Assembly (NCBI RefSeq): GCF_002159555.1
Contig: NZ_NFIV01000010.1
Location: 1 to 64,000, forward strand
DNA from: Muribaculum sp. An289
Lineage (GTDB): Bacteria > Bacteroidota > Bacteroidia > Bacteroidales > UBA932
Reading direction: 5' to 3'
Length of the DNA: 64,000 nt
Below are positions 4 through 32,400 of the stretch, in pieces (position 1 is the first letter of the stretch; every line of letters starts with the position of its first letter). The translations under genes were made by a program, and so were the position numbers. The notes under the pieces are model-generated. The model saw only the letters and a program-made list of their open reading frames with translations, was not told where the DNA came from and ran no database searches.

Positions 4-20
4 GGCTCCGAAACGGAGCC
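4..20. repeat. Short perfect hairpin at left edge
   Basis: Two 7-base arms, GGCTCCG and CGGAGCC, flank an AAA loop. No T-run follows on either strand, so a classical terminator is not supported. It may belong to a gene beyond the left edge of the window. The rest of positions 21-225 shows no gene. Confidence 0.5.
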
Positions 21-225
21 GAAAATATAAAAAGATGAGTTCGATCGGAAAAATTACCGGGACAGTCTGCCGATTGACTCATAATGACGGAATTAAACGA
101 CAGTCCCTAGAATATAGACTAACGGGGTAAAAGTTCAGTTACTTTATCATTACCTAAGTAATGGTGAGAATTTCTTGGAAAACCGATGTATTTCACCGTT
201 TGGCATAAAGCGTCATAGCTGTCTG

Positions 226-2618: not shown

Positions 2619-5189
2619 ATGGCTAGAGTAAAATATGAAATGATTGATCCTGATTTAGCTTCTGCTATGTTGTCTGAGGCTAAATCAACTTATGGTCTTA
2701 AAACTTACATCAGTTTGTTTAGCAGTGCTGGTGTTGGGTGTTATGGTTTTAAAGAAGAGGGATTTTACTGCATAGCAACTGTCGAGTTGTTGGAGCGAAG
2801 ATTAAAAATACAGTCGTTTAATCACAAGTGTGTATATCAGAGCGGTTATATCTGTGGAGATATGACGTTGCAAGAGACTAAAGATAAGGTTTTTAAAGAA
2901 CTTGCCCTTTGGAAAAGAGGATATAATATTACTGATCTTGATGTTCTCATTGCGACCCCACCATGTCAAGGAATGTCCGTTGCAAATCATAAAAAGAAAG
3001 ATGAGCTAAAGCGAAATTCTTTAGTTGTTGAATCAATCAAAATGACGATGCAAATTAAGCCGAAATTCTTTATTTATGAGAATGTTCGTGCTTTCTTGAA
3101 CTCTGTATGTACCGACATTGATGGTCAAGATAAAACCATAAAAAATGCCATAGACAAAAATCTTTCAGGAGACTATAACATATCATATCAAGTCCTGAAC
3201 TTTAAAGATTACGGAAATCCGTCTAGCCGTACTCGTACACTCGTTATTGGCGTAAGAAAAGATATGAAAGAAATTACGCCTTTTGATTTATATCCAGACA
3301 GGCAACCAGAAAGGACATTGCGCCAAGTTATAGGTCACCTTCCGTCCTTGAAAAAAATGGGAGAAATATCTGCTGATGATATTTATCATAATTTCAGAAA
3401 GTATTCACCTCATATGGAGGCGTGGATTGCGGATATTAAGGAGGGACAATCAGCATTTGATAATACTGACATATCAAAAATTCCACATACTATTAAAAAT
3501 GGGATTGTGGTATATAATGCTCAAAAAAATGGTGACAAATATACTCGTCAGTGTTGGGATAAGGTTGCTCCTTGCATTCATACTCGAAATGATATTATGG
3601 CAAGCCAAAACACAGTACATCCTACCGACAACAGAGTTTTTAGTATCCGTGAATTGATGCTGATGATGTCTGTTCCCTCCTCTTTTGTATGGACTGATAT
3701 CCCATTTAAGGAGTTGAACGCTTTTTCAGAAAAGCAGAAGCATGATTTTCTGAAAAAAGAAGAAATGAATATTAGACAAAATCTAGGGGAAGCGGTTCCA
3801 ACTATTATTTTTCAGCAGATTGCACACAAAATACGTGCTGCTTTATGCAAACCGACAATGTCTGAACAAGACATCAAATCACTTATTGAAGTGAAAAGTT
3901 TGACCACACCATCTTGCTTATTGGAATATATAAAAACTGCAGACCACCGTAGTTTTGCTGATTTGTCTAAAATTGCAGAATTGGCAAACGCACAAAGAGA
4001 AGACAATGCCGCCTATTACACAAGGCAGGATATTTGCTTTTCAATTGTTAAAAATTTGCCAGATGCGAAAAATTATTCTGAACTGAATATTCTGGAGCCA
4101 TCAGTTGGAGTTGGTAATTTCTTGCCGACCTTGATTCAAAAATATTCAAGTGTCCCTGCGATAAACATTGATGTTGTGGATATTGATGCCGTAAGCATTG
4201 AAATTTTAAAAGAATTAGTAGATAAAATAAATATTCCTGCTAATGTGCATATTAATTACATCAATGCAGATTTCTTATTGTATGAGTTTGATAAAAGATA
4301 CGATATTGTAGTAGGTAATCCTCCGTATAAGAAATTGACAAAAGAAAAAGAATTATTGTCTAAGTATAAATCAAACATCTATAATAAAGATACTAATAAT
4401 ATATTTTCATTTTTCATTGAAAAAGCAATGAAAATAGGAAACGTCGTTTCATTGATTGTGCCCAAAAGCTTGATTAATGCTCCTGAATTCAATTTGACTC
4501 GTTCATTGATGAAAGAAAAGAGAGTGACTCATATTATAGATTTTGGAGAAAAAGGATTTAAGGGAGTTAAGATTGAAACAATATGCTTCATTCTTGATAC
4601 ACAGAAAAAGCCAAGCAATACAATTGTCGAATCTTATATAACAAATACGGTATTGGAACATAAACAGGAATATTTAATGGATGACAAATTTCCATATTGG
4701 ATAATTTATCGCAACAATGAGTTTGACGAAGTTGCCGATAAGATGGATTTCAACGTGTTCAAAGCATATAGAGACAGAGTCATTACCAAATCAATAACAA
4801 AGAGTAATGGAAAAATAAGGGTCTTGAAATCAAGAAACATAGGAAACAATGAAATTATCAACATTCCTGAATATGACAGCTATATTGATGATGTAACTGG
4901 TTTAGATGTCGCAAAATATCTGAATCAGTCAAATTGTATTCTATTGCCAAATCTTACATATAATCCACGGGCGTGTTTCTTGCCCAAGGGTTGTATCGCA
5001 GATGGCTCTGTTGCAATCTTGACATTAGTGAATGATGCTGATTCTGTTTCTAAAGCAGATTTGGCTTTTTATGCAACAGATAGCTTTACAAGGTTTTATG
5101 CAATTGCTAGAAATTTAGGGACACGTTCTCTTAATATAGATAATAACTCCGTTTTCTTTTTTGGGAAACTTAAATCTCAACAGGTATGA
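2619..5189 (+). CDS. Fused m5C + m6A DNA methyltransferase
   Basis: An 856-residue bifunctional modification enzyme. Residues ~28-400 are a cytosine-5 methyltransferase: SAM site FSSAGVGCYGF (~34-44), catalytic PPCQG with Cys116, ENV (154-156), SRTR (203-206), and a C-terminal GEAVP-like motif. Residues ~430-856 are an N6-adenine methyltransferase of the Eco57I/N6_Mtase type: LEPSVGVGNF (~492-501) and catalytic NPPY (567-570), followed by a probable target-recognition region. Two activities of different chemistry fit a type II enzyme with an asymmetric site, where each strand needs its own methylation, as in the Alw26I/Eco31I/Esp3I group. The recognition sequence cannot be read. It overlaps the endonuclease gene by 4 bases (ATGA), so translation is probably coupled. 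Confidence 0.92.
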   Translation: MARVKYEMIDPDLASAMLSEAKSTYGLKTYISLFSSAGVGCYGFKEEGFYCIATVELLERRLKIQSFNHKCVYQSGYICGDMTLQETKDKVFKELALWKRGYNITDLDVLIATPPCQGMSVANHKKKDELKRNSLVVESIKMTMQIKPKFFIYENVRAFLNSVCTDIDGQDKTIKNAIDKNLSGDYNISYQVLNFKDYGNPSSRTRTLVIGVRKDMKEITPFDLYPDRQPERTLRQVIGHLPSLKKMGEISADDIYHNFRKYSPHMEAWIADIKEGQSAFDNTDISKIPHTIKNGIVVYNAQKNGDKYTRQCWDKVAPCIHTRNDIMASQNTVHPTDNRVFSIRELMLMMSVPSSFVWTDIPFKELNAFSEKQKHDFLKKEEMNIRQNLGEAVPTIIFQQIAHKIRAALCKPTMSEQDIKSLIEVKSLTTPSCLLEYIKTADHRSFADLSKIAELANAQREDNAAYYTRQDICFSIVKNLPDAKNYSELNILEPSVGVGNFLPTLIQKYSSVPAINIDVVDIDAVSIEILKELVDKINIPANVHINYINADFLLYEFDKRYDIVVGNPPYKKLTKEKELLSKYKSNIYNKDTNNIFSFFIEKAMKIGNVVSLIVPKSLINAPEFNLTRSLMKEKRVTHIIDFGEKGFKGVKIETICFILDTQKKPSNTIVESYITNTVLEHKQEYLMDDKFPYWIIYRNNEFDEVADKMDFNVFKAYRDRVITKSITKSNGKIRVLKSRNIGNNEIINIPEYDSYIDDVTGLDVAKYLNQSNCILLPNLTYNPRACFLPKGCIADGSVAILTLVNDADSVSKADLAFYATDSFTRFYAIARNLGTRSLNIDNNSVFFFGKLKSQQV

Positions 5190-14393: not shown

Positions 14394-14732
14394 TTATATG
14401 AACAGATATGCAAAATATTTTGCAAAGAAATACAGCAGTACGGCAAGTGCGACAAACATGGCATATTTCGCCAGCCTGACCAGAAAATTGCCTTCGCTCT
14501 TCGTTTTCTGGTAAGCGCCGTCCCTCAGGCTGCCGTAAATAAGCGACCCGGGAACATAATCCTTGCTCTGCTCGGGAATCTTTCCTTCCTGAAGCTCCTT
14601 AAGTTCCCTTTCGGCCGACACCTTCCTCAGTTTTTCCCTGCGGCGCTCCTTCTCCGGATCGTAAAAGACCGGCTGATAATTGAACACCCTGTGGTGCTGA
14701 GGGGTTGAAAACAAATTGAATCTGAATGCCAT
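14394..14732 (-). CDS. Small C-terminally anchored membrane protein, unknown
   Basis: A 112-residue protein with a charged coiled-coil-like middle (EKERRREKLRKVSAERELKE, ~28-47) and one C-terminal hydrophobic helix (~88-111). No signal peptide. The type is common upstream of mutL in Bacteroidales, but its function is unknown. It lies 12 bases before mutL and is probably the first gene of that operon. Confidence 0.75.
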   Translation of the reverse strand: MAFRFNLFSTPQHHRVFNYQPVFYDPEKERRREKLRKVSAERELKELQEGKIPEQSKDYVPGSLIYGSLRDGAYQKTKSEGNFLVRLAKYAMFVALAVLLYFFAKYFAYLFI

Positions 14733-14797
14733 AAAACAAAATCTATATCCTGCAAAGATAATAAACTGTTTTCAATTTCTCAAAAAGTTCCGGGGAG

Positions 14798-15045
14798 TAA
14801 GAAGCTGTTTAAAAATTTTTATCAGAAAATTCCAGAAAATTCGAGACATGCTTCCGTGCAGATTCCTGCCGTTTTTTTGATCCTGCCGTTTTTTTGATCC
14901 TGCCGTTTTTTGATTTCTGCCATTTTTTTAGGAGAATAGCAGTATTATTTTACAATATAAATGGCGGAATGGTGTCGGAAAAATGGCGGAATGATGGCGG
15001 AATGACGTCACAAAGAACTTTTGAAAAATTTTAAACGGCTTTTAA
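14798..15045. mobile_element. MITE-like element with terminal inverted repeats
   Basis: The left end TAAGAAGCTGTTTAAAA(A)TTTTT and the right end AAAATTTTAAACGGCTTTTAA are inverted copies of each other, enclosing about 250 bases without a gene. The right end continues inward as CACAAAGAACTTTTG, and that extended sequence recurs at 43713-43750; shorter copies lie near 27194, 26474 and 38566. This fits a non-autonomous transposon derived from an insertion sequence not present here. Inside are a 17-base tandem repeat and three ATGGCGGAATG-like units (14960-15005). Confidence 0.6.
14864..14931. repeat. Tandem 17-bp repeat
   Basis: TCCTGCCGTTTTTTTGA occurs twice exactly, a third time with one T fewer, and a fourth time degenerately as TTTCTGCCATTTTTTTAG. 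The poly-T tracts make slippage likely, so copy number may vary between strains. Confidence 0.8.
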
Positions 15046-15106
15046 CATTTGGAAATAATATTTGCCGAGACTTGCCGATGTGTCATTTGCCTGTTTCCGG
15101 AGGAGC

Positions 15107-15190
15107 AGAGAGCCTCGGAAGGCGTTAGAGAACCTTTAACCAGCTCAAAGTTGATGATGCGAACAGGGGCAAGAGAGCCTCGGGAGGCGT
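15107..15190. repeat. Direct repeat pair with GCCT/AGGC stem
   Basis: A 19-base sequence beginning AGAGAGCCTCGG occurs at 15107-15125 and 15172-15190 with one difference (A/G). Each copy holds a GCCT-CGGA-AGGC mini-hairpin. No gene is seen between 15046 and 15311. Confidence 0.65.
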
Positions 15191-15311
15191 GAACCGTATT
15201 TCTACCGCAGCAATCCATGGTAATTGTACTGGAATATAGTTGTGTGTTGGGGAAGGAGGGGTACTTCATGGATGCTATCTGTATTTTATAAATTCATAAA
15301 TTCACCTCAGG

Positions 15312-15605
15312 GGGAAAGTGCCCTGAATTCGTGGGAATTTGGTTCACTTTCCCGGGAAAAACGGCGAAAATGGCGGTAGAATCAATATTTTCGGCGGGAA
15401 AGTGCACCAAAAAAGCGAGAAAATGGTTCACTTTCCCCCGAAAAACGAATGGAAATAGCGGTAAAGCCAATATTCCCCAGGGAAAGTGCCTCGGATTCGC
15501 GGCAAAACGGTTCACTTTCCCCGGGAAAAACGGCGAAATGGCGGTAGAATCAACATTTCCGGCAGGAAAGTGCCACTGATTCGTGGAAATTTGGTTCACT
15601 TTCCC
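15312..15605. repeat. 84-bp tandem hairpin repeats, four hairpins
   Basis: GGGAAAGTG and CACTTTCCC pair around a 24-base loop four times, at 15312-15353, 15396-15437, 15480-15521 and 15564-15605 (the last arm begins AGGAAAGTG). Starts are exactly 84 bases apart. Between hairpins runs a conserved spacer containing GGCGAAAATGGCGGTAGAATC, missing parts in the middle unit. Because 84 is divisible by three, the repeat stays open in several frames on both strands; on the minus strand it reads as a 28-residue repeat (HFPAGNVDSTAI.., ..GKVN..). A second locus with the same period lies at 31601-31726. Confidence 0.9.
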
Positions 15606-15710
15606 GGCGGTTAGCATAGATAAAATTGATTTTTTTCGTCAGACAAGTAAGGAAAAGCGGCGCACACCGCGACAAGAACGGCGGAATGATATCAGAAGTA
15701 TTTTAACCAT

Positions 15711-15750
15711 AAGGCTGGCCTGAAAGTCAAAAGACTTTGCAGCCAGCCTT
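15711..15750 (-). terminator. Terminator of the 15800-17197 lipoprotein gene
   Basis: AAGGCTGGC (15711-15719) pairs with GCCAGCCTT (15742-15750), with an inner AAAGTC/GACTTT stem, about 50 bases after the lipoprotein stop codon on the minus strand. The T-run is weak in either direction. Confidence 0.55.
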
Positions 15751-15799
15751 TATTGCATCAATAAACAAGCCTACCCTCGGAAACTCTGAAATCCAGGGG

Positions 15800-17197
15800 T
15801 CACCTTCCCATGACCGCCTTGATTTCCTCAGCGCCAAGCGGACGGATTACCGCAATTGTCTCTGCACCTCTTGAAATAAGACCATAACCGGATACGGATG
15901 CAGCCGCAGTACCGGCTGTAGCAAACTCTTTCTTTGCCGATGCTCCGTAGCCGAAGGTACCATTGCCATTCATCGGGAAACCGACAGCGACATAGTCAGT
16001 CCCCGGAAGCAGGTTTGGCCACACGTAATCGTCATCGGCGAACAAGGTGGCGCCATAAACCGCAACATAATCGCGCACATAGTCTTCAGGATTATCATAT
16101 TCAGGCAGGCTCGCACCATAGTCGACAAGATCATTGTAATCGGCGACAGTCATCACTGCCTGATAATACGCCCTCGTGTTTTCACCCATCACATATTTCA
16201 CACGGGCCGTAGTTTCCGTAATCTCCGAAACTTCGATTGTCATATTGCCCGGAAGGGGCAGGGATTCATCCGCAAAATCGCTATGGAATGAAAAACTTCC
16301 GCATGCCACAAAATTACCGGAAGCGTCAAAACCGGCAACGCCCATTACGTAATCATAATCTTCATAACCGTTCAGGGCGACTATGCCCGTTTCTCCATCC
16401 GGTATAGGCGTAATCATCCCGAAAGAAGCATAGGTCTCAGTAATCTCTTCTATGCTCATACCCAATTCGGCAAGCACGGACTTTGACACTACCAGCAGGC
16501 CGGACGAAGCTACCGATTCATCATGGATAGTCGCGGTAAGATCCATCGCCACCAAATCAAAATGATCAACTGTAAGTCCTGCGCCGAACGCCATTATCTG
16601 AGAATACTGTGTCTCGGACTCCAGTCCTGTAGCCGTGATTCCTCTGGCATATACGGCATACGGACCTATTGAATCGCGGACGACAGGAACACTGACGGCA
16701 TCTGTGACCTCAATGCCTTCAAGTGTACCGTCCTCAAACGCCTGCCGGGACTCCGGCAAAGGCATGGATACGGCAGACACCACTGCATAACGAATTGTCT
16801 CAACATCCTCGGAAGGCACAAAGTCTATATTGAAAGCCCCGTTGCCTACATACTCAAGAGACATTAAAAGAGAGACATCTTCAATATCGGCCACAACATC
16901 TCCCCAATCCGAGTCAACATATCCGGCGGCAACAGCCTTCACTTTTACCGTATGTTCTCCCTGAGTCAGGCCAACAAAGGTCACGGAACATTCGGCGGTA
17001 CTCTGATCGGTTCCTTCATCAAGTACATAAACATATTCCGCAGCTCCTTCAACAGGGGCCCATTCCACGATAAAACCGTCCGAAGTCAAGGATGTAACCT
17101 GAGGCACCGGGGATGCAAGTTTGGATTCTTTCTTACATGACATCGCCAATGACAATACCGTGCAGACAAGCACAGATAAGATTAATTTTGTCTTCAT
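15800..17197 (-). CDS. Surface lipoprotein with fibronectin-III-like domain
   Basis: A 465-residue lipoprotein. The signal peptide ends at a lipobox, LAMSC, near residue 20, followed by KKES. Residues ~32-105 read as a fibronectin type III domain (DGFIVEWAPVEGAAEYVYVLD). The remainder is a series of beta-rich segments repeating the style TETTARVKYVM...YYQAVM. No enzymatic motif is visible. The 490-residue lipoprotein at 38662-40134 has the same architecture, so they are probably distant paralogues. Likely outer-membrane surface binding or scaffolding. Confidence 0.8.
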   Translation of the reverse strand: MKTKLILSVLVCTVLSLAMSCKKESKLASPVPQVTSLTSDGFIVEWAPVEGAAEYVYVLDEGTDQSTAECSVTFVGLTQGEHTVKVKAVAAGYVDSDWGDVVADIEDVSLLMSLEYVGNGAFNIDFVPSEDVETIRYAVVSAVSMPLPESRQAFEDGTLEGIEVTDAVSVPVVRDSIGPYAVYARGITATGLESETQYSQIMAFGAGLTVDHFDLVAMDLTATIHDESVASSGLLVVSKSVLAELGMSIEEITETYASFGMITPIPDGETGIVALNGYEDYDYVMGVAGFDASGNFVACGSFSFHSDFADESLPLPGNMTIEVSEITETTARVKYVMGENTRAYYQAVMTVADYNDLVDYGASLPEYDNPEDYVRDYVAVYGATLFADDDYVWPNLLPGTDYVAVGFPMNGNGTFGYGASAKKEFATAGTAAASVSGYGLISRGAETIAVIRPLGAEEIKAVMGR

Positions 17198-31264: not shown

Positions 31265-31301
31265 CGGCAGCAACGGCAGGAGTTCCATTGAATCCTTGCG
31301 T

Positions 31302-31357
31302 CCTTGCATTGTTGCCTCCTTGCATTGTTGCCTCCTTGCATTGTTGCCTCCTTGCAA
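31302..31357. repeat. 16-bp tandem repeat, 3.5 copies
   Basis: CCTTGCATTGTTGCCT is repeated three times exactly and then starts a fourth copy. Degenerate ATTCATTGCAA / ATCCATTGCAA units continue to about 31435, with a similar rhythm of 16-20 bases. Confidence 0.9.
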
Positions 31358-31600: not shown

Positions 31601-31726
31601 GGGAAAGTGCCGTGAATTTGTTGAAATACGGTTCACTTTCCGGGGGAAAATGGCGAAAATGACGGTAAAATCAACATTTCCAGCGGGAAAGTGCACCAAA
31701 TTCCCGCGAATCCCGGGCACTTTCCC
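31601..31726. repeat. Second locus of the 84-bp hairpin repeat
   Basis: GGGAAAGTG occurs at 31601 and 31685, again exactly 84 bases apart, each answered by CACTTTCC(C). The spacer GGCGAAAATGACGGTAAAATC matches that of the 15312-15605 array. A duplicated TTATTGCACATTCCGCCA unit lies just before (31514-31550). Confidence 0.85.
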
Positions 31727-31973: not shown

Positions 31974-32246
31974 GCGCTCCAAAATAGAGCGATGGCTATG
32001 GGGTGGAAAATTTGTCGGGAAATTGCTTTTCGGTCACGAAAACGGGAATGCGGTGAAAAATCGGCAGGCAAAATCAAATTTTCATTCCTTTGTTACCTCG
32101 CCCATCAATCCTTCGTCAGGACATTGTTAGGACATTATTAGGACATTATTTCTCAGGCCTCAGAAAACGAAAGTTCGGAGCGAGTTGAATTTTGCTAAAT
32201 CATTAAAAATCAGTATTTTATTAAAAATCAACTCGCTTCAAACCAA

Positions 32247-32400
32247 CCAACACCGATACACCAACATCGGTTCGCCGGCATCGATACACCAACACTGATA
32301 CACCAACACCGGTTCGCCGACATCAATCCGCCAACACCGATACACCAATACCGGTCCTCCGACATCAACCCGCCAACATCAATCCACCAACACCGGCACA
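32247..32400. repeat. 14-bp tandem array, 11 copies
   Basis: Eleven consecutive 14-base units, consensus CCAACACCGATACA, fill 154 bases with no indels. Variants alternate between GATACA, GGTTCG and CAATCC endings. The array ends 2 bases before the stop codon of the convergent membrane-protein gene. Confidence 0.92.

Follow-up and report, generated by a model that had tools for sequence, protein, structure and literature searches.

Helically phased dyad arrays as the probable cognate repeats of a RAYT-like Y1 transposase

INTRODUCTION

The mosaic elements of Neisseria (NIME, dRS3) are made of short inverted repeats that alternate with several kinds of repeated spacer. The REP/RAYT systems (REPtrons) are described as having a Y1 transposase gene between inverted copies of a short palindromic repeat, which is also dispersed over the genome (PMC2817692, PMC6006769). 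The repeats known as REPINs or BIMEs keep preferred distances from each other, 71 and 110 bp being those given for P. fluorescens SBW25 (PMC3116915, PMC8266576), and a subclass of Y1 transposases from Bacteroidetes, TnpA-Y1 subclass 2.6, is characterized by 'atypical secondary structures', a median length of 179 and the motif YIH[QN]NP (PMC6006769).

Here we analyzed a 64-kb stretch of DNA (the window, positions 1-64000 of contig C2) from a genome assembly of 2.32 Mb in 36 contigs (G000), whose closest named relatives by MutL are the Bacteroidales Candidatus Merdivivens pullicola (71%) and pullistercoris (67%). It is likely that the repeats of the window are dispersed repeats cognate to a RAYT-like Y1 (HuH) transposase, with neighbouring copies placed whole helical turns apart.

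RESULTS

The dyads of the window belong to a dispersed family

The repeat unit is a 42-bp dyad, GGGAAAGTG-N24-CACTTTCCC, with two nearly invariant 9-bp inverted arms. Four 42-bp dyads lie on the plus strand at 15312-15353, 15396-15437, 15480-15521 and 15564-15605; both arms are exact in the first three, and the left arm of the fourth is AGGAAAGTG, which starts with AGG. The 42-bp linkers between them (15354-15395, 15438-15479 and 15522-15563, plus strand) include two members, the first and the third, of cluster 0, the commonest linker cluster. At the second place, a 42-bp plus-strand dyad whose right arm ends in CCG (31601-31642) is followed by a 42-bp linker on the same strand that is partly like cluster 0 (31643-31684) and by another 42-bp dyad of ambiguous strand (31685-31726). 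The 84-base hairpin steps reported by the first-pass annotation (84, 84 and 84 at 15312-15605, and 84 at 31601-31726) were reproduced; the positions that it gave for the hairpins also stand, but its arm letters had to be corrected for the fourth left arm and for the right arm at 31642. A search for GGAAAGTG-N24-CACTTTCC with up to three mismatches returned six sites in the window, all six exact, compared with a mean of 0.30 and a maximum of 2 in 100 dinucleotide shuffles of the window. Short tandem repeats occur near both arrays (14864-15005 and 31288-31356; periods 17, 11 or 22, 16), and a further tandem repeat with periods of 14 and 42 bp and the unit ACCAACACCGATAC is found at 32246-32396.

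The repeat had been taken to occur at two loci, a count that proved far too low: the strict pattern is found 84 times per strand in the same genome, where its reversed control is absent. Judged by inner sequence, at least one of these 84 (C6:7275) does not qualify as an element, and another (C12:15223) is an overlapping match of greater length. A blastn search with the window array gave 64 matches in this genome; 95 elements were kept from 35 of its stretches plus the window. Over nine genomes the number kept was 181, and 177 of these are equal in length. Among the 299 family genomes sampled, 9 carry the strict pattern, with 82 copies in G000, 34 in G002, 19 in G206, 14 in G077 (one of which looks unrelated), 10 each in G102 and G188, 9 in G156 and 2 each in G001 and G212. 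The core between the arms is conserved less strictly, around ATTCGCGG-AAA--GGTT. The arrays are mostly head-to-tail, so that 79 of 87 neighbour pairs have the same orientation, 2 the opposite one, and 6 are ambiguous.

With a crude gene model, which missed long window ORFs such as 2619-5189, none of the 37 clusters of G000 overlapped a gene; 13 were located between convergent genes, 18 between genes of the same direction and 4 between divergent genes, with 2 unclassified. By the same crude model, one cluster of G002 extends a few bases into the end of a gene. No constant rule was found for the orientation of the arrays relative to genes. In intervals between same-direction genes, the arrays oppose the genes in 12 of 12 cases in G002, 12 of 18 in G000 and 1 of 10 in the other genus. 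Another repeat, about 190 bp long and with an inner dyad of its own, is found beside the arrays in 13 of 36 G000 sources (L136 2861-3070 and 12 other G000 loci), the window not being among the 13; in the other genus, alignments revealed a palindromic module of about 105 bp that recurs near the elements (L169, L179, L185, L168 and L172). An origin from phages or plasmids was discarded, since window:15290-15620 gave no match in the phage and plasmid collections; two viral contigs with the strict pattern carry single dyads of unlike inner sequence.

Neighbouring dyads are spaced by a ladder of helical steps

The 87 neighbour spacings shorter than 200 bp fall into discrete classes of 83-85 (34 pairs), 95-96 (10), 105-108 (39), 118-119 (3) and 129 bp (1). 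Their best period is 11.15 bp (R 0.94), i.e., a step of about 11.2 bp, and the fits by genome gave 11.25 for the 55 spacings of G000 and 11.05 for the 19 of G002. Seven gaps of 200-700 bp (322, 613, 632, 460, 208, 209 and 453) were kept outside the fit. The linkers that fill these spacings fall by sequence into 14 clusters, some of them perhaps distantly related. At one orthologous site, the array is of the 84-bp class in G000 and of the 106-bp class in G002; both arrays can be aligned, and the gaps sum to about two turns. With 10.6 bp per turn, the relaxed pitch, the spacings of the window family have phase 0, i.e., 8, 9 and 10 turns. Helical repeats of 11.60 and 11.08 have been inferred inside bacteria (PMC1762422), and 11 bp per turn is given as an in-cell bacterial value (PMC8501960); the slope of the ladder, 11.2, is nearer to these in-cell values (11.0-11.6 bp per turn) than to the relaxed pitch. 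Helix-turn spacing suggests a protein that reads the repeats from one face of the double helix.

Four array sites could be aligned between G000 and G002, and a fifth pair, L137 and L155, was found by blastn. One site, compared in three close species, has nearly identical flanks and identical arms but a different core, and at another site two species agree throughout. The stretch of L137 and L155 that holds this shared array is 95% identical, other compared loci of these two species being mostly 67-88% identical; a recent exchange is conceivable. In the M. pullicola stretch that matches window 14764-15893 and is bordered by the homologues of the window's flanks (L029 4193-9618), no element was found with up to five mismatches; as this stretch is 5.4 kb long, no insertion boundary can be read from it and it is no clean empty site.

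The family accompanies a Y1 transposase of the RAYT kind

Three Pfam Y1 matches were detected in the G000 genome at E 0.001, one of which, at C32:304-735 (L144:304-735), lies near an element at C32:921. Its protein has some match in 170 of the 299 family genomes. The seven best matches (100, 90, 85, 72, 71, 71 and 71%) fall in exactly the seven genomes with at least nine strict copies, and the next five (63-65%) in genomes that have none; shared descent explains part of this genome-level agreement between RAYT and repeat. G001 and G212, with two copies of the window family each, have weaker RAYT matches, none of them close. Beyond the family, no match was found in 294 other genomes of the order sample at E 1e-20, a strict threshold, since it also misses three relatives within the family.

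Inverted elements of the window family flank the transposase gene on both sides in G002 and G077. The reading frame is broken in G002, and open over 312 residues in G077. In G000 the gene is in two pieces: residues 1-134 of the G077 protein match the start of C32, and residues 133-311 match C2:66136-66672, about 2 kb past the window end, with 13 bases common to both edges, for which splitting by an insertion is the simplest reading. One element lies upstream of this split gene (C32:921), and an array lies past its 3′ end (C2:65785-66061). By eye only, an ORF next to the split gene looks transposase-like.

The HuH and Y motifs are present, with H51, H53 and Y108 invariant in six paralogues and RN(P) following Y108 (the P is replaced by A in one of the six). 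The L174 and L144 proteins score above the cut-off of Pfam Y1_Tnp and three others just below it; the NCBIfam model REP_Tyr_transpos was matched with an E value of 4e-10 and 39.8 bits, i.e., below its cut-off of 80. When four C-terminal parts were compared with Pfam at E ≤5, Bac_DnaA_C, HTH_23 and HTH_28 were not found, and one weak match to Imm6 was observed (0.079).

Paralogous RAYTs have dyads of their own on the same ladder

The flanks of 20 RAYT genes were read, 420 bases on each side. Seven other dyad families, whose arms were picked by eye, adjoin RAYT paralogues: GAAGGTG (spacing 117-118 bp), GAAGGAGT (127), GCAGGTGAACC (104), CAACGGCA (105), GAGAGTGTACC (94, 106 and 118), AGAAGGTG (106) and GACAGGTG (105). 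The rungs occupied by the paralogue families are 71-74, 84, 94, 104-106, 117-119 and 127.5 bp, with one pair of 246 bp off the ladder. In some of the 20 (e.g., G155, G166 and G090), no array was present within these 420-base flanks.

A blind scan for dyads with exact 8-bp arms, repeated 55-250 bp apart, was applied to 57 RAYT loci (17, plus 40 from the top of the RAYT match list) and to 78 control loci (1.30 Mb). It detected 40 pairs in 22 of the 57 RAYT loci and a single pair in the 78 control loci, and added the rungs 71-74 and 84 in other genera; nothing was detected in the remaining 35 RAYT loci, several of which show arrays by eye. When 23 spacings from 16 arm families were taken together, the best period was 11.3 bp (R 0.88), and none of 20000 random sets was as good; the outcome was the same without the window family. 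Without refitting, the 18 spacings of the 15 other families deviate on average 1.0 bp from 84.2+11.2k (2.8 expected; 0 of 20000), and adding the off-ladder 246-bp pair, which is 5 bp off, raises the mean to 1.25 bp, still with 0 of 20000. A 436-bp pair in L214 was kept outside the ladder counts, as were spacings below 60 or above 200 bp in the 15-family test. Since the families may be remotely related, these spacing tests overstate their independence.

Among the matches listed for G166, G212 and G146, which carry dyads of the GGAAGGTG family, 67 spacings are shorter than 300 bp and 62 are between 60 and 200 bp: 105-106 (27), 117-120 (31), 128 (2), 150 (1) and 178 bp (1, off the ladder), with R 0.93 at 11.2 and a best period of 11.65. 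The GGAAGGTG dyads number 16-89 (both strands) in each of G062, G077, G090, G124, G135, G146, G166 and G212, 1-3 in G102, G156, G188 and G206, and none in G000, G001, G002 and G113; the reversed control had one hit, in G206. The distribution of the window family over genomes is nearly the mirror image of theirs, with G077 and G212 carrying two families each. In G102, G156, G188 and G206, the RAYT of 71-72% identity is flanked by GAGAGTG dyads and not by dyads of the window family; the GAGAGTG dyads are rare (4 in G102, 3 in G156, 2 in G188 and 1 in G090), and absent from the other 12 of 16 genomes, including G206. Each RAYT has a dispersed repeat of its own, the exceptions being this GAGAGTG family, which is rare away from its RAYT, and the two-family genomes G077 and G212.

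The proposal of a DNA repeat under helical spacing was upheld, with steps of about 11.2 bp over the 87 pairs and over other repeat families. It had originally been tied to a period near 84 bp and to covariation of the hairpin arms; periods other than 84 occur and the arms do not covary, but these periods differ from 84 by whole helical steps, which leaves the spacing constraint standing in a more general form.

Alternative readings of the arrays

The arrays could instead serve a DNA-organizing protein of the host (HU- or IHF-like, or gyrase), the transposase having merely spread them, so that helical phasing and phased A/T runs would favour bending or wrapping and not transposition. The A/T content is indeed periodic at 10-10.5 bp, with a relative power of 5.9 in 159 elements and 2.8 in the 14 linker representatives, among which the 42-bp class gives 5.5 and the 62-67-bp class 1.7. 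Control pieces of coding and intergenic DNA reach 1.2-1.4, although the figures for whole units follow in part from element repetition; in addition, gyrase and IHF are described to bind the REPs of E. coli (PMC6006769). However, the arms differ between transposase paralogues, and a host protein shared by all of them would have no use for such differences; we consider this reading unlikely.

A slightly lower probability is given to a ladder of mutational origin, in which slippage or tandem duplication adds or removes linker pieces of about 11 bp with no selection on phase. Tandem copies of about 11 bp are visible in some long linkers (C2:65785-66061), and 11-bp tandem repeats occur elsewhere in the window, but the same rungs are found in other genera and in families whose arms and linkers are dissimilar, and slippage by itself would not set a starting phase common to all.

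It is quite improbable that the repeats act as RNA hairpins, be it as terminators or as stabilizers of 3′ UTRs. The convergent placement of 13 of the 37 G000 clusters, as seen with the crude gene model, would agree with this, as would the terminator-like sites in 14700-15850 (4, versus 1.5 in shuffles), two of which overlap the array on the minus strand. Covariation of the arms had been named as a check, but the 9 arm pairs showed no compensatory change in 159 distinct elements; without a single two-sided change the arms look as if they were read as sequence. Furthermore, the linkers are no more stable than their shuffles (mean z within 1 of 0 for clusters of at least three, lowest single value -2.7), Rfam gives only three tRNAs in the window and none at the array, and spacing by helical steps has no place in such a reading.

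The translated 28-residue repeat suggested by the first-pass annotation can practically be dismissed: the array was said to be open in several frames on both strands, but only a single frame of six, on the minus strand, is free of stops through 15313-15604. Some open frame is present in 7 of the 16 G000 arrays of at least three elements, but 9 of these 16 have none, only 37 of the 87 spacings are multiples of three and the other 50 shift the frame, and Pfam gave no match for the minus-strand ORF.

DISCUSSION

The reading of the window repeats as cognate to the RAYT-like transposase leads to a model in which binding of the enzyme to the dyads, their mobilization and the purpose of the helical spacing rule are what we infer. 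The transposase, with its nuclease domain and C-terminal part, would read the arms in double-stranded DNA; molecules bound to neighbouring dyads would then meet on one face of the helix, and the strand could be cut and copied after this encounter. That many unlike repeat families share one spacing rule speaks for a specific architecture, in which neighbouring dyads would be in contact on the same side of the duplex. Because the transposase gene is split in this genome, the arrays of the window are probably left over from past spread and persist through selection or because they decay slowly.

Only tentatively, and with somewhat more doubt than belief, do we extend this to a RAYT-type HuH clade with a long C-terminal part that would act on double-stranded, phased dyad arrays from one face of supercoiled DNA. 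If this were true, the arrays of some 16 repeat families would record the helical repeat inside the cell, about 11.2 bp per turn, and would imply a synapse of two dyads, which is not described for GTAG REPs in the literature examined. The spacing rule would make it possible to read the in-cell helical repeat of uncultured bacteria from their sequence alone, and it bears on how RAYT proteins recognize and spread their repeats and on why hosts keep them.

Among the described systems, TnpA-Y1 subclass 2.1 comprises long RAYT relatives, as here, but is reported to be without REP-like repeats nearby (PMC6006769), and its helix-turn-helix models gave no Pfam match at E ≤5 in four of the C-terminal parts studied here. 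Subclass 2.6 shares the Bacteroidetes host and the unusual repeats beside the gene with copies elsewhere (PMC6006769), but the proteins analyzed here have 308-319 residues and Y-V/I/L-x-RN. The REPINs and BIMEs also have preferred spacings and clusters beside RAYT genes, but their repeats are alternating or inverted (PMC3116915, PMC8266576), whereas 79 of the 87 neighbours here have the same orientation. The TIRYT proteins of TIRtrons are long RAYT relatives too, with flanking inverted repeats unrelated to GTAG REPs, some of them in dimers or clusters, but their GGGGWSAS motif is not matched by GGGGAAAG (PMC3733652). In our family, three of 93 G000 elements have GT[AG]G no more than 2 bp from the left foot of the hairpin, and none of the 93 has its complement at the right foot. 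The mosaic elements of Neisseria, by the description given at the outset, are similar in that inverted repeats alternate with repeated spacers. As in REP/RAYT, inverted repeats flank the gene, copies are dispersed and each transposase has its own repeat; unlike REP/RAYT, the protein has about 310 residues with a long C-terminal part, and the spacings form a helical ladder, of which we found no report for REP/RAYT and, for RAYT repeats, no title in the open-access literature searched. The system is a variant of REP/RAYT (or of TIR/TIRYT) without the GTAG tag, organized in helically phased arrays.
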